Part shown: positions 1 through 4,251 of the stretch, piece by piece | Layout of the letters: each line of letters starts with the position of its first letter | How positions within the stretch are numbered: position 1 is the stretch's first letter | Source of the DNA: Desulfofundulus kuznetsovii DSM 6115 | GTDB lineage: Bacteria > Bacillota > Desulfotomaculia > Desulfotomaculales > Desulfovirgulaceae | Direction of reading: 5' to 3' | NCBI RefSeq assembly: GCF_000214705.1 | Contig: NC_015573.1 | Location: 2,239,001-2,303,000 of the forward strand | Length of the DNA: 64,000 bases | Made by a program: the position numbers and the translations under genes | The notes under the pieces: generated by a model | Seen by the model: only the letters and a program-made list of their open reading frames with translations | What the model was told of the DNA's origin: nothing | The model's database searches: none

Positions 1-2417
1 TGAGTTCCTTCACCGGGATTGTTCACGATGTAAGGGTAGATATCCGGCATGTTCCCGATCAAAACATCCGGCCAGTCATTTTCTCCCAGCCCCACACTCC
101 GGCCGGGCAGCCATTCCAGCGTGCCGTGGGTACCCAGGTGAATTACCGCATCGGCCTGGAACTCCTTCTGCAACCAGAGGTAAAAGGCTATATACTGGTG
201 GGGGGGAGGCAAAGCTGGGGAATGGGCAATCTTGTCGGGATCATCCCCCCAGCCCCGTACGGGCTGCGGGCCAAGGAAAATGTTACCCAGTGTGGCACCG
301 GGAATAACCAGGTTGCCTTCGTAAACCATGATGTTACCCGGAGGTGGACCCCATTCCTTTTCCACCTGCGCCCGCAGTTCCCCGGGCAGGGTAGCGTACC
401 ATTCCAGGTATTTTTCCACAGGCAGGACTAAGGCTCCCGCCTGCACCAGTTCGGCCAGTTCTCCCGGCGCCCAGCTGCCGACATTTCTGCCCTGCCTGCG
501 AATTAGTTCTTCTATTGCCTGGGGGCTGAGGTCGCCTTCCACCCGGTAACCATTGTCCCGCAATGCCTGCAAAATAACCGCTGCGCTGGCGATACTGTTT
601 AAATAGGCGGCACCGATATCATCTTTACCAGCATGGTGGTTATAGTAAACAAGGGCTATTTTTTTGTCTGCATTGTTTTTCTGCCGCAGGTTTATCCAGG
701 CCAGTACCCGGCCTACCAGGCGGTCAATGCGGTCGGGAAGGGGTACTTTTTTGACTATGCGAGCCCCCGTACTTTCATCCACCCTTACCAGCGTACTGCC
801 GCCCATGAATACAGGCTCAATGCGTCCGTCCAGTTCAGGATAGGCAATTTGCCAGGCCACCTCGCTGCTGATACCTGCCGGGTTGCTCTGCCAATCCTCT
901 AAATCGCTGCTGTAAACCGGTGCCATAACCGGTACATTTAACTGCTTAAATAACTCGATACCGGCTTCCGGCTGGCCGTAAATGAAGTTAAATCCAATCC
1001 CGGCAATGAGAAAGTCCACCTGTCTTTTGCCGCCGGGCATAAAGAAGTCCTGAAATGCTTCTTTACGGCTGCTGCTGTCACTGAAAACCAAAAGCGCATT
1101 GACTCCCCTGGCTTCCAGTTCCCTCTGGACAGCCAGATACATGTCGATATCACCATTTTTAAAGAAGCTATCGTAGCTAATAATGCCGACCCACGGAGCT
1201 CCCTCTTTTAAATGTCCGCTGGCTTTATACCAGGCAAGATAACCACCTAAAGTACCGAAAGTGCCCGGCGGCAGTCCCGTACCGCCTCCACCGCCGGTAG
1301 GCAGGTATACGGCATCATGCACGCTCTGGTATACCCAGTCCAGGTCAAACCCGGAAAGCTCCGGCCCCCAAAGGGCATCATATACCGCCCGGTAGACTGT
1401 AGCCTGAGCATCCCCCAGATAAGCGGCTGCAACCCGGTCATAAAGGGCATTATAAACTGTATCTACGGCCAAACCGGCACCTTGCCCGTCGCTATGATAT
1501 ACCGCCTGGTAAACAGACTGGCGCACGGTATCATAAAGAGCCTGTAATCCCGTTTCTCCCTGCTCCGCCAGGTATACGGCTTCAGCCACAGTTCGGTACA
1601 GACCACTGGTATCCAGGGTAGAAGCACCCCCGCACCAGTCGTGCACGGCCTGGTTCACCGTCAACCGGGCCAGTGTCCAGTTCGTACTGTTATCCGGCTG
1701 GTACACGGCCGCGTAAACGCTCTCATAGACCGCCCGGTGGACTTCATTTACTCCCAGGCCCTGAGCTGCACTATCACCCGCCGCGTATACAGCATTGCAT
1801 ACCGTTTGGTACAGCCCATCCACGTTGAGGGTAAGTCCCTCAACATCAGGATGGTAGATGAACCGGACGGGCATTTTAACCGGATCTAACTGATCCCCGG
1901 TTGTTACCTGTCCGTATCTGGAGGCCAGATACAATACCAGCCGCCGCATATTTTCCACGCCGCCATTTACAAAATATTGAGCCAGGAAAGTATTTTGACT
2001 TTCATCAATACGGGGGTAATCAGGAAAAGAACCGCTACGGGTGGAAAGCACCTCGCACTTTTCAGGCAGGTCCTGCAATAAAGGCCCAACTGTTTGAATG
2101 GTTGTAGCCCCAATCATTTCCATCAAGAATACATCTGCATCCTGCAACGATTGCTTCAGCTGCTGGATTTTTTCTTCGCTCTTCAGGTCGTTGGAGCTAA
2201 ATAACTTCAGCTCAACAGGATAGTTCTGCAACTGGCCGTAAGCATCCACCAGGGGTACCAGAAACCCCTCACTGCCCAAAAGCATAACCACCTTCGTACG
2301 TGCATTTTCATTTGCTGCAGCCCCGGAAGCACTTATTAAGAAAACAATAATCAGGACTATCAGGCTCAGGGATAGCAAGGTCGGGTGTTTTTGCCATTTT
2401 TCTTTACCTGTGGGCAT
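1..2417 (-). CDS. cobN: CobN-like cobaltochelatase large subunit, exported, 3' end outside window
   Basis: An open frame runs without a stop from ATG at 2417 to the left edge (805 complete codons; the C-terminus lies outside). The N-terminus is a basic segment followed by a hydrophobic helix (about residues 13-35, ending near ASGAAAN), so the protein is exported or membrane-anchored, unlike the cytoplasmic CobN of aerobic B12 synthesis. The signature HLGTHGTLEWLPG lies at about residues 760-775, typical of the CobN/BchH family that inserts Co or Mg into a tetrapyrrole. Residues about 197-380 are an unusual insert of repeated (V/L)Y-x-(A/S)-VY units followed by a Gly-rich linker. A GTGAGGTGG ribosome site precedes the start. 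It is the last gene in the window of a riboswitch-controlled minus-strand operon with ExbB/ExbD-like proteins. The family call is firm; the substrate and the direction of the reaction are unknown. Confidence 0.88.
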   Translation of the reverse strand, partial: MPTGKEKWQKHPTLLSLSLIVLIIVFLISASGAAANENARTKVVMLLGSEGFLVPLVDAYGQLQNYPVELKLFSSNDLKSEEKIQQLKQSLQDADVFLMEMIGATTIQTVGPLLQDLPEKCEVLSTRSGSFPDYPRIDESQNTFLAQYFVNGGVENMRRLVLYLASRYGQVTTGDQLDPVKMPVRFIYHPDVEGLTLNVDGLYQTVCNAVYAAGDSAAQGLGVNEVHRAVYESVYAAVYQPDNSTNWTLARLTVNQAVHDWCGGASTLDTSGLYRTVAEAVYLAEQGETGLQALYDTVRQSVYQAVYHSDGQGAGLAVDTVYNALYDRVAAAYLGDAQATVYRAVYDALWGPELSGFDLDWVYQSVHDAVYLPTGGGGGTGLPPGTFGTLGGYLAWYKASGHLKEGAPWVGIISYDSFFKNGDIDMYLAVQRELEARGVNALLVFSDSSSRKEAFQDFFMPGGKRQVDFLIAGIGFNFIYGQPEAGIELFKQLNVPVMAPVYSSDLEDWQSNPAGISSEVAWQIAYPELDGRIEPVFMGGSTLVRVDESTGARIVKKVPLPDRIDRLVGRVLAWINLRQKNNADKKIALVYYNHHAGKDDIGAAYLNSIASAAVILQALRDNGYRVEGDLSPQAIEELIRRQGRNVGSWAPGELAELVQAGALVLPVEKYLEWYATLPGELRAQVEKEWGPPPGNIMVYEGNLVIPGATLGNIFLGPQPVRGWGDDPDKIAHSPALPPPHQYIAFYLWLQKEFQADAVIHLGTHGTLEWLPGRSVGLGENDWPDVLIGNMPDIYPYIVNNPGEGT

Positions 2418-2436
2418 TGAGCCATGGCCACCTCAC

Positions 2437-2793: not shown

Positions 2794-3424
2794 CCCCCAC
2801 CACCAGTTCCAGCAGCAACTCCAGATACCGTAAATCCTGCTCGTACCAGCGGCGCCGCACCCTGGAAATGAGAGCACCCACCGCTCCGGCAGCCACACCC
2901 ACCACCGTAGTATCAAAAGCAATGATCACTGCTTCGGACAATCCCCGCACATCACCCTGCCCCAGAGCAGCCAGCCCGGGACCAAGGGGGATAAGAGTGC
3001 CCATCAACCCGAAAACCGGGCTGAGTTTGGCCAGTAAATCCGTTTTGTCCAGTGTTTGTTTAAACCGGAATTCTTCACGGTCCAGTATGTCCTGAGCCAC
3101 CAGCCTCCTGACCTCAGGGGACAGTCCGGGTTTTGCCAAAAGATCCGATACCAGTTTTTTTTGGCGCGGATTTAAAGCACTGCTATCAAGCACCTGCTGC
3201 AGGTTGCGCATCTGCCAGAGGGAAACCCCTCCCACGTCATGAATTACTTCCAGCAGGTTGACTGGCTGAATAACTTTTCTTCTCCTCATTTCAGCCACAA
3301 AACTACCCAGTTCCATGAAGGCAAAAACGAGAAAGAAGAGCAGACCCACAATATCGGGAATTAGCAGGCTCTGGGATGCAGCATGTAAAATTTTGGTTAA
3401 ATATTCGGAACCAGGAATGGTCAT
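2735..3424 (-). CDS. MotA/TolQ/ExbB-like proton channel protein
   Basis: A 229-residue membrane protein of the MotA/TolQ/ExbB family. It has a first membrane helix at about residues 20-45, a long cytoplasmic region, then two helices (SPVFGLMGTLIPLGPGL and [19 protein letters not shown]) that carry the small residues and Thr pairs typical of the ExbB/TolQ pore. ATG at 3424 overlaps the stop of the preceding DUF2162 gene (TGATG), so the two are translationally coupled. With the ExbD-like DUF2149 protein encoded next, it would make an ion-motive-force-driven motor. A monoderm Firmicute has no TonB-type outer-membrane receptor, so the likely partner is the CobN-like protein of the same operon. 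Confidence 0.85.
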   Translation of the reverse strand: MTIPGSEYLTKILHAASQSLLIPDIVGLLFFLVFAFMELGSFVAEMRRRKVIQPVNLLEVIHDVGGVSLWQMRNLQQVLDSSALNPRQKKLVSDLLAKPGLSPEVRRLVAQDILDREEFRFKQTLDKTDLLAKLSPVFGLMGTLIPLGPGLAALGQGDVRGLSEAVIIAFDTTVVGVAAGAVGALISRVRRRWYEQDLRYLELLLELVVGGESRAVQETEAGAVIRRRS

Positions 3425-4251
3425 CAATCATCACGTTCCTTTAAGAAATTCATCTGATAGCGTAAATAACCCGCCAGGCTTAAGACCACCAACCCCGCTA
3501 ATACCGCCGCCAGCCAGCGGGGCGAATCAATGTTCACGGGAGTTAGGGGCATGGTCATGGCCTGGACAAAGTTGGGAATAAAAAGAGCAAAGATAAGCGT
3601 CATCAATCCGGTAAACAACAACAACGGATTAAAAATAGCTACAGGCTTATACCCGGTCAAACGGATCGCTCTTCTCATGGCAAGGCTGGTCACAATAACC
3701 AGGATAAAAAACAGCACCGCAACAAACAGTCCCAGGCGAGAAAGCCCTGTACCCACCATGGAACTGGCTACAATGACTGAAAAGGCCAGGGCAACCAGGC
3801 ATAAAGGACAGGGTAAAAAACCCAGGGCATACTTAAACCGCTCCAGAGCAGGAGAAATAACAGCCCCTGGCGCCGGCTGTCCTGCAAGGAAATGACAGGA
3901 GCTGTTAGAGGCAACCGCCTTACCGGCAAATTCCCCATCTCCCCCGGAACGAAAACTTGCTTCACGCAAGCAACCCGGGGAAGAACTCCCTGCCCCCTTT
4001 TCCTCCTGCAGCCCCAGGTAAATCAGAAATATGGCTGCCAGCAAGGCTCCTGCAAAGGTGTAACGATCCAGAAAGGAAATCAGGGTTTGTTGATGTGTAC
4101 CAAAGAATACAACCAGCCCGTAAAGGATACTCCCGAACAAAAAAGATGTCAGCACCAGCCCCCACCGGCTCAGCCACGATGCACCCAGGATCAATCCTGT
4201 TTTAATACTGAGAACAAGAGTAGCCAGCAGAAGTCCACCATAAATTGACAT
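3424..4251 (-). CDS. DUF2162 family polytopic membrane protein, putative transporter
   Basis: A 275-residue protein with about six or seven hydrophobic segments, including an internal GFLPCPLCLVAL motif that resembles the paired-Cys/Pro helices of DsbD- and LysE-like carriers. A soluble, low-complexity Ser/Gly/Cys loop sits at about residues 85-125. ATG at 4251 follows AAGGGG; the in-frame ATG at 4293 lies inside the terminator hairpin and is unlikely. It is the first gene after two cobalamin riboswitches, so its expression should fall when cobalamin is plentiful. Assignment to DUF2162, a family I associate with CobN/ExbB/DUF2149 clusters in methanogens, is from recall. The substrate is not known; cobalt or a corrinoid is inferred. 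Confidence 0.7.
   Translation of the reverse strand: MSIYGGLLLATLVLSIKTGLILGASWLSRWGLVLTSFLFGSILYGLVVFFGTHQQTLISFLDRYTFAGALLAAIFLIYLGLQEEKGAGSSSPGCLREASFRSGGDGEFAGKAVASNSSCHFLAGQPAPGAVISPALERFKYALGFLPCPLCLVALAFSVIVASSMVGTGLSRLGLFVAVLFFILVIVTSLAMRRAIRLTGYKPVAIFNPLLLFTGLMTLIFALFIPNFVQAMTMPLTPVNIDSPRWLAAVLAGLVVLSLAGYLRYQMNFLKERDD

Follow-up and report, generated by a model that had tools for sequence, protein, structure and literature searches.

A B12-riboswitch cassette in Desulfofundulus kuznetsovii joins a predicted exported CobN-like protein to ExbB and DUF2149 genes

What would a CobN-like protein do outside the cytoplasm, beside a proton-channel subunit and behind cobalamin riboswitches? 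The question is raised by the window, the 64,000-nucleotide stretch of Desulfofundulus kuznetsovii DSM 6115 analysed here (NC_015573.1, positions 2,239,001 to 2,303,000; complete genome, 3.60 Mb), which carries at its left end tandem cobalamin riboswitches (RF00174) followed by minus-strand genes for DUF2162, ExbB, DUF2149 and a 1573-residue CobN-like protein (Table 1). A sequence-only reading of this locus had proposed that the proton motor drives an extracytoplasmic CobN, with proton motive force taking the place of ATP in chelation. Judged from its sequence, the cassette is a B12-linked variant of the hmuSTUV system, and at the level of the whole family it is probably a B12-repressed envelope system that follows the hmuSTUV plan, with a motor-coupled client, and scavenges either corrinoid or the cobalt in it.

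The cassette and its CobN-like protein

Both riboswitches exceed the RF00174 gathering score of 31.5, and with the Pfam matches they confirm the four minus-strand genes behind cobalamin riboswitches that had been read from the letters. At 11 of the 16 strong DUF2149 loci of the class, the first cassette gene is preceded at a distance of 80-440 bases by a cobalamin riboswitch; since the whole 3.6-Mb genome holds about 8 such riboswitches, this linkage is not attributed to chance. Of the 113 genomes of the class, 43 carry DUF2149; the scores fall into two groups, about 64-82 and about 30-39 bits, and the higher group has CobN, ExbB and DUF2149 together, usually with DUF2162. The same gene set, which the earlier reading suggested looking for in other genomes, turned up across several phyla: a scan of named genomes produced 80 loci, most with CobN directly beside ExbB and DUF2149, from Bacillota, Actinomycetota and Myxococcota metagenome-assembled genomes, and many Beta- and Gammaproteobacteria (proteobacterial carriers Methylophaga, Azotobacter, Pseudomonas, Marinobacterium, Lysobacter and Methylobacillus). 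Cobalamin riboswitches start several of these operons in Bacillota, Betaproteobacteria, Gammaproteobacteria and Trichlorobacter lovleyi. The tandem arrangement (window 4374-5096, minus strand) recurs in the same place at loci L042, L044, L045, L049 and L091 and at L157 of T. lovleyi. A DUF3842 gene is recurrent near the cassette in Bacillota (L008:209-838, L042:2330-2758, L082:7879-8340).

The CobN-like gene, complete at L008:11696-16417 (genome 2236696-2241417), ends at 2,236,696, beyond the left edge of the window. Its PF02514 match spans most of the protein's length, and all NCBIfam CobN equivalog cut-offs were missed (916 versus 1619 and 742.6 versus 822 bits). A hydropathy scan predicted the N-terminal hydrophobic signal or anchor noted earlier, and the C-terminal membrane anchor expected beyond the edge was located there as a predicted helix, the protein ending in a Pro/Gln-rich linker, GGRAYELEVEKK with a RAYEL motif, the hydrophobic helix and FIKGYFTGRA. 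The protein is accordingly described as a predicted exported, membrane-tethered and extracytoplasmic one, not a cytoplasmic one. Its Tyr-rich repeat insertion is shared by several Desulfotomaculia relatives and cleanly missing from the close relative L044.

In a tree of 37 proteins and 790 columns, in which HmuS was represented by one partial sequence and BchH by one sequence only, the cassette proteins and Bacteroides theta HmuS formed one group (ultrafast bootstrap 97), with weakly supported branching inside it, and cytosolic CobN formed a separate group (ultrafast bootstrap 100) that holds the two other full-length CobNs of the genome. The His essential in HmuS (H-x-G-T/A-H-G) is present in every aligned cassette member, as HLGTHG in the window; its equivalent, HmuS His-538, has a catalytic role (PMC12583661). 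A C-terminal Cys motif after the chelatase core is common to HmuS (SCSGFVCDN), T. lovleyi, Runella and most Bacillota members (GVVCCHHTCAN in the window), with a matching GLPGSGHT stretch in proteobacterial members; cytosolic CobN and BchH are without it. The HmuS site LSLDHxxEFMGG (His-1209, Glu-1212) is replaced in the window protein by LDNDDVAQYLGG, which is closer to the CobN sequence SDDYFQYHGG than to the HmuS site, and the methionine-rich insertion of HmuS is absent, a 44-residue junction with 2 Met standing where HmuS has its long Met-rich stretch. Because clade, His and Cys motif are shared but DHxxEFMGG and the Met-rich insertion are missing, the window protein, as far as its sequence tells, follows the HmuS plan yet is not HmuS. 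A substrate rule in which DH at position 1209 marks porphyrin and DD corrin was considered and dropped; cyanobacterial ChlH does not fit it cleanly, and DH/DD at this site was therefore used only to discriminate HmuS from CobN.

Chelatase ATPases do not accompany the cassette. AAA/VWA genes were found near it at 0 of 76 loci, versus 4 of 4 cytosolic CobN controls, and no CobS/CobT-type genes lie immediately beyond the left edge, in line with the earlier statement that neither partner is here; a ChlI/ChlD-type AAA/VWA pair lies about 11.6 kb further, between the operon and a separate cytosolic CobN paralogue. The earlier premise of a cell with no outer membrane is supported by the complete genome, in which TonB-dependent receptors (PF00593) and Omp85 (PF01103) had no match; TonB itself was not searched for.

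Among the membrane components, the DUF2162 open reading frame opens at 4293, and the start of the relative L049 falls on the codon at 4251, the start chosen in the earlier reading. Its CPxC is invariant in 20 of 20 aligned relatives, and "permease" is a guess at its role, because fold matches gave no identification. A CcdA/DsbD-like electron conduit was tried for DUF2162 and rejected: the 12-sequence model was poor (predicted local distance difference test, pLDDT, 64) and the CcdA match reached only Foldseek E 3.6. An improved model (pLDDT 82), from a second alignment that left out one plasmid-derived sequence and the divergent row L099, gave no convincing match in a structure search. The genome has only one further MotA/ExbB-family gene, with a score of 117.7 bits, which presumably encodes the flagellar MotA. 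For DUF2149, the earlier numbering of Asp-30 is right given the GTG start, and this Asp is invariant in 37 of 37 aligned sequences; the D. thermobenzoicus protein is 98% identical to that of the window. The corresponding HmuV has been termed ExbD-like (PMC10100974).

Table 1. Features of the cassette and of the run beyond the left edge (window positions unless a locus is named)
Feature	Position	Strand	Match or remark
Cobalamin riboswitch, distal of tandem pair	4826..5096	minus	RF00174, 106.4 bits
Cobalamin riboswitch, proximal	4374..4651	minus	RF00174, 124.1 bits; 123 bases before first gene
DUF2162 membrane protein	3424..4251	minus	PF09930, E 4e-42; invariant P-C-P-x-C
MotA/TolQ/ExbB-family proton-channel subunit	2735..3427	minus	PF01618, E 3.5e-9, 36.9 bits vs cut-off 22.9
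DUF2149, ExbD-like position	2437..2793	minus	PF09919, E 2e-21; GTG start; Asp-30 in LIDVMLVF
CobN-like protein, residues 1-805 of 1573	1..2417	minus	PF02514, 1144 bits
Tyr-rich repeat insertion (YxxVYxAVY-like), ~180 residues, inside CobN-like protein	1284..1832	minus	
Codon of His-764 (HLGTHG)	126..128	minus	alignment; equivalent of HmuS catalytic His-538
539-aa protein, toroid-like region and SLH	within L008:5901-11492 (genome 2230901-2236492)	minus	
957-aa protein, toroid-like region, Big_2, DUF4430, SLH	within L008:5901-11492	minus	
292-aa DUF4430 protein, separate	within L008:5901-11492	minus	

Motor coupling and other clients

The T. lovleyi plasmid (L157) bears directly on what the motor serves: tandem cobalamin riboswitches, a TonB receptor, DUF2162, ExbB, DUF2149 and CobN are followed in the same operon by a separate ExbB, ExbD and TonB and a second receptor, so that ExbB/DUF2149 is not simply a TonB energiser. 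The cassette proteins also have a tail in common, composed of a disordered linker, a short motif, 15-50 residues and one C-terminal helix with a basic end, the motif being AYE[IL] in Bacillota, PSxIxE[IL] in Gammaproteobacteria and GFEM in T. lovleyi. In TonB, the docking peptide after the membrane helix binds ExbD as a beta strand (PMC10771500).

Full-length CobN is missing from the low-score ExbB/DUF2149 loci of the class; directly upstream of ExbB these encode an exported protein with a tail of the form ...WRVFEMS...-helix-YxEYxRE. The strict tail motif was present in 21 of 32 non-CobN neighbours of ExbB/DUF2149 versus 7 of 244 controls with a C-terminal helix, with p-values (1e-14 to 1e-18) that are overstated, because the clients are homologous within groups and the motif was refined after the tails had been read. 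In the CobN tails themselves the strict form was found in 25 of 61 and a loose form in 53 of 61. Two CobN-like proteins cut to about one domain (L070:15856-17226 and L072:2806-4266; 456 and 486 aa) were also observed; they keep the signal, a VFEVE motif and the C-terminal helix, and lie beside ExbB/DUF2149 and ATP-binding cassette (ABC) transporter genes. Of the earlier proposal that a proton motor drives an extracytoplasmic CobN, the coupling is thus plausible, given the second motor of T. lovleyi and the tail on other proteins neighbouring ExbB/DUF2149, and the notion of a relocated CobN is not upheld, because the protein belongs to the exported clade that contains HmuS.

Some of the other clients are linked to molybdenum. 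Riboswitches for the molybdenum/tungsten cofactor were found in 7 of 19 low-score loci scanned, and cobalamin riboswitches in 0 of 19; the former have a high background in some genomes, which hold as many as 30 of them, often clustered in islands. Some clients, such as L057:2822-4501, match Oxidored_molyb above cut-off, neighbouring SLH proteins score around it, and in several low-score loci genes for an ABC_cobalt-type S component, EcfA and EcfT of an energy-coupling factor (ECF) transporter follow. ExbB/DUF2149 was seen beside SLH proteins of molybdenum-cofactor (Moco) fold and ECF genes in L057-L076, for example at L066:2464-6841, L062:12462-18682 and L059:12634-16820. This molybdenum-type set parallels the CobN, intrinsic-factor-like and ECF set of the D. 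kuznetsovii operon, which suggests a general cofactor-scavenging motor. On a Runella plasmid (L158:3656-9369), the genes between hypF and hypC/hypD/hypE encode a receptor, a membrane protein resembling NicO and DsbD_2 (below the Pfam cut-off for both), ExbB, DUF2149 and CobN. No cobalamin riboswitch is present there, and the set points to a nickel version. As a tentative generalisation, ExbB/DUF2149 might be a proton motor with exchangeable tail-anchored clients, pulling metal cofactors from surface binding proteins where there is no outer membrane; with the same reserve, CobN-like clients might serve B12, Moco-fold clients the molybdenum/tungsten cofactor, HmuS heme and the NicO-linked client nickel. 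If true, a single membrane would suffice for a TonB-like principle.

Neighbouring genes, mechanism and rival explanations

After the CobN-like gene the same-strand run continues with two toroid/SLH proteins, a DUF4430 protein, EcfT, a fused EcfA (EcfAA) and EcfS. The two DUF4430 copies of the genome both lie in this run; the DUF4430 match (46.7 bits) is above cut-off and that of the toroid region below it. A solved-structure search with the 957-aa protein returned SLH, Ig-like and faint lanosterol-synthase matches, and no intrinsic-factor or transcobalamin chain. DUF4430 is also carried by transcobalamins (PMC4350170). Further along, genome 2165001-2225000 (L011, L010, L009) is rich in tetrapyrrole genes, with two cytosolic CobN paralogues, a broken CobN (L005/L006), several NifH- and NifD/K-like genes, FmdE, BtuF/BtuC/BtuD-like and ECF genes and another cobalamin riboswitch; it may encode an unknown tetrapyrrole reductase pathway.

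In the mechanism proposed here, the C-terminal tail (linker, AYEL-type motif and helix) would dock on ExbB/DUF2149 as TonB does on ExbB/ExbD, and proton flow would move the exported protein itself, not an outer-membrane receptor. Motor work would open the CobN-type cleft and free bound cobalt or corrinoid. Freed cobalt could be passed inward by DUF2162, with its invariant CPxC; freed corrinoid could be taken by an importer, here with the intrinsic-factor-like surface proteins and the ECF transporter. For the chemistry, removal of cobalt is slightly favoured, as a tentative choice short of an even chance, hand-off of intact corrinoid is a possibility held with some doubt, and insertion of cobalt is improbable. 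Several points weigh against the scavenging proposal: the destruction of corrinoid by a B12-starved cell needs explaining; the fold of DUF2162 was not identified by structure matching of two models; at profile level DUF2149 resembles ExbD only weakly (hhalign E 0.004, probability 9 percent); the Desulfofundulus group alone has ECF and intrinsic-factor-like genes after the cassette, and most loci have nothing beyond the core; the strict tail motif misses most gammaproteobacterial tails; and the tail test is not independent, for the reasons given with its p-values.

The first proposal, an extracytoplasmic chelatase in which proton motive force and not ATP drives cobalt insertion, could draw on the CobN-type cleft with its catalytic His, on the CobN-like DDxxQY in place of the HmuS DHxxEF, and on plasmid clusters of Methylobacillus and Marinobacter, where related exported CobN genes adjoin cbiA and cobO, which neighbour cobalt insertion in the late-cobalt pathway; similar speculation exists for Chlorobaculum (PMC8620254). 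Against it, the genome has cbiX and cbiD, which would allow early cytoplasmic insertion of cobalt, and outside cells metal-free corrinoids are rare. HmuS, the only characterised relative, is a membrane-bound heme de-chelatase that removes metal in an assay with NADH (PMC12583661; P. gingivalis support, with reservations, in PMC13227078). Replacement of ATP-driven chelation by proton motive force is unsupported, and insertion is quite unlikely. Another rival, in which the CobN-like protein only binds and relays corrinoid, without chemistry, and the motor releases it to an importer of ECF, ABC or other type, deserves more credit and is doubtful rather than unlikely: the ECF importer and intrinsic-factor-like proteins stand in the same-strand run, BtuF-, BtuC- and BtuD-like genes lie beside a related exported CobN in Marinobacter, and the molybdenum-type loci pair Moco-fold proteins with an ECF importer and no chelatase. 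A relay, however, accords poorly with a catalytic His kept in every aligned cassette member, and in most Bacillota loci the only importer available would be DUF2162, which is small for taking up corrinoid.

That ExbB/DUF2149 might be an ordinary TonB-type energiser, with CobN beside it as a genomic convenience, is suggested by the TonB-dependent receptors often adjacent in Gram-negative loci and by the role assigned to HmuU/HmuV (PMC10100974). It was rejected, as an unlikely account, mainly on the T. lovleyi operon with its separate ExbB-ExbD-TonB and on the missing receptor and Omp85 matches here, the cassette being kept in a genome with no receptor to energise. Handling of heme as in Hmu, with the B12 riboswitch incidental, would agree with the clade shared with HmuS, but in several phyla the cassette comes with B12 riboswitches and the HmuS-specific DHxxEFMGG and Met-rich insertion are missing, making it very unlikely.

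Prior work, significance and comparison with known systems

The architecture of the cassette is not new: the four-gene plan is known from hmuSTUV (PMC10100974), hmu operons have been described with DUF2149 and ExbB genes (PMC10434189), hmu-like operons with cobalamin riboswitches in Bacteroides (B. fragilis) have been suggested to act in cobalamin metabolism (PMC10100974), and a cobN-exbB-exbD-tonB cluster was noted on the Trichlorobacter/Geobacter lovleyi plasmid, for which the portion of PMC3403914 considered here leaves the role of CobN unknown and does not discuss the separate second motor. Within the literature searched, novelty lies in how far the cassette and its B12 linkage extend across phyla, in its occurrence in a monoderm beside intrinsic-factor-like and ECF genes, in the argument from two motors, in the tail and in the second, molybdenum-linked set. 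Among the many proteins that carry the annotation "cobaltochelatase subunit CobN" but lack both an ATPase and a known job are archaeal ones (PMC12583661); placed with HmuS in a clade that is exported, motor-linked and B12-regulated, such orphans gain a testable role. The role of HmuTUV in the heme system becomes testable as well, as does a Ton-like motor powering cofactor acquisition without an outer membrane.

With the aerobic cobaltochelatase CobNST the window protein shares the CobN fold and a CobN-like cleft motif, whereas CobNST is cytosolic, has AAA/VWA ATPase partners and falls in a separate clade, and the window protein has predicted membrane segments. The Ton motor ExbB-ExbD-TonB likewise combines a proton-channel subunit, a partner with an invariant Asp and a client whose single membrane helix lies next to a short linear motif (PMC10771500); here, in contrast, the helix is C-terminal and on the cargo-handling protein itself, and there is no outer-membrane receptor. 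The 957-aa protein resembles intrinsic factor and transcobalamin in pairing a putative alpha-alpha toroid-like region, matched below the Pfam cut-off, with DUF4430, but it is bacterial, SLH-anchored and has an Ig-like domain between the two, and is a putative B12 binder only.

The hmuSTUV system of Bacteroidota has the same set of an exported, membrane-anchored CobN-family protein, a small membrane protein, ExbB and DUF2149, with the same clade and catalytic His. The D. kuznetsovii cassette differs in its B12 riboswitch in place of an iron/heme context, in having neither HmuY nor HmuR, neither DHxxEFMGG nor the Met-rich insertion, in occurring where there is no outer membrane, and in its nearby ECF and intrinsic-factor-like genes. 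The B12-linked systems of B. fragilis and T. lovleyi differ from it in being Gram-negative with TonB receptors, and resemble it in an exported CobN with ExbB/DUF2149, to which T. lovleyi adds DUF2162.

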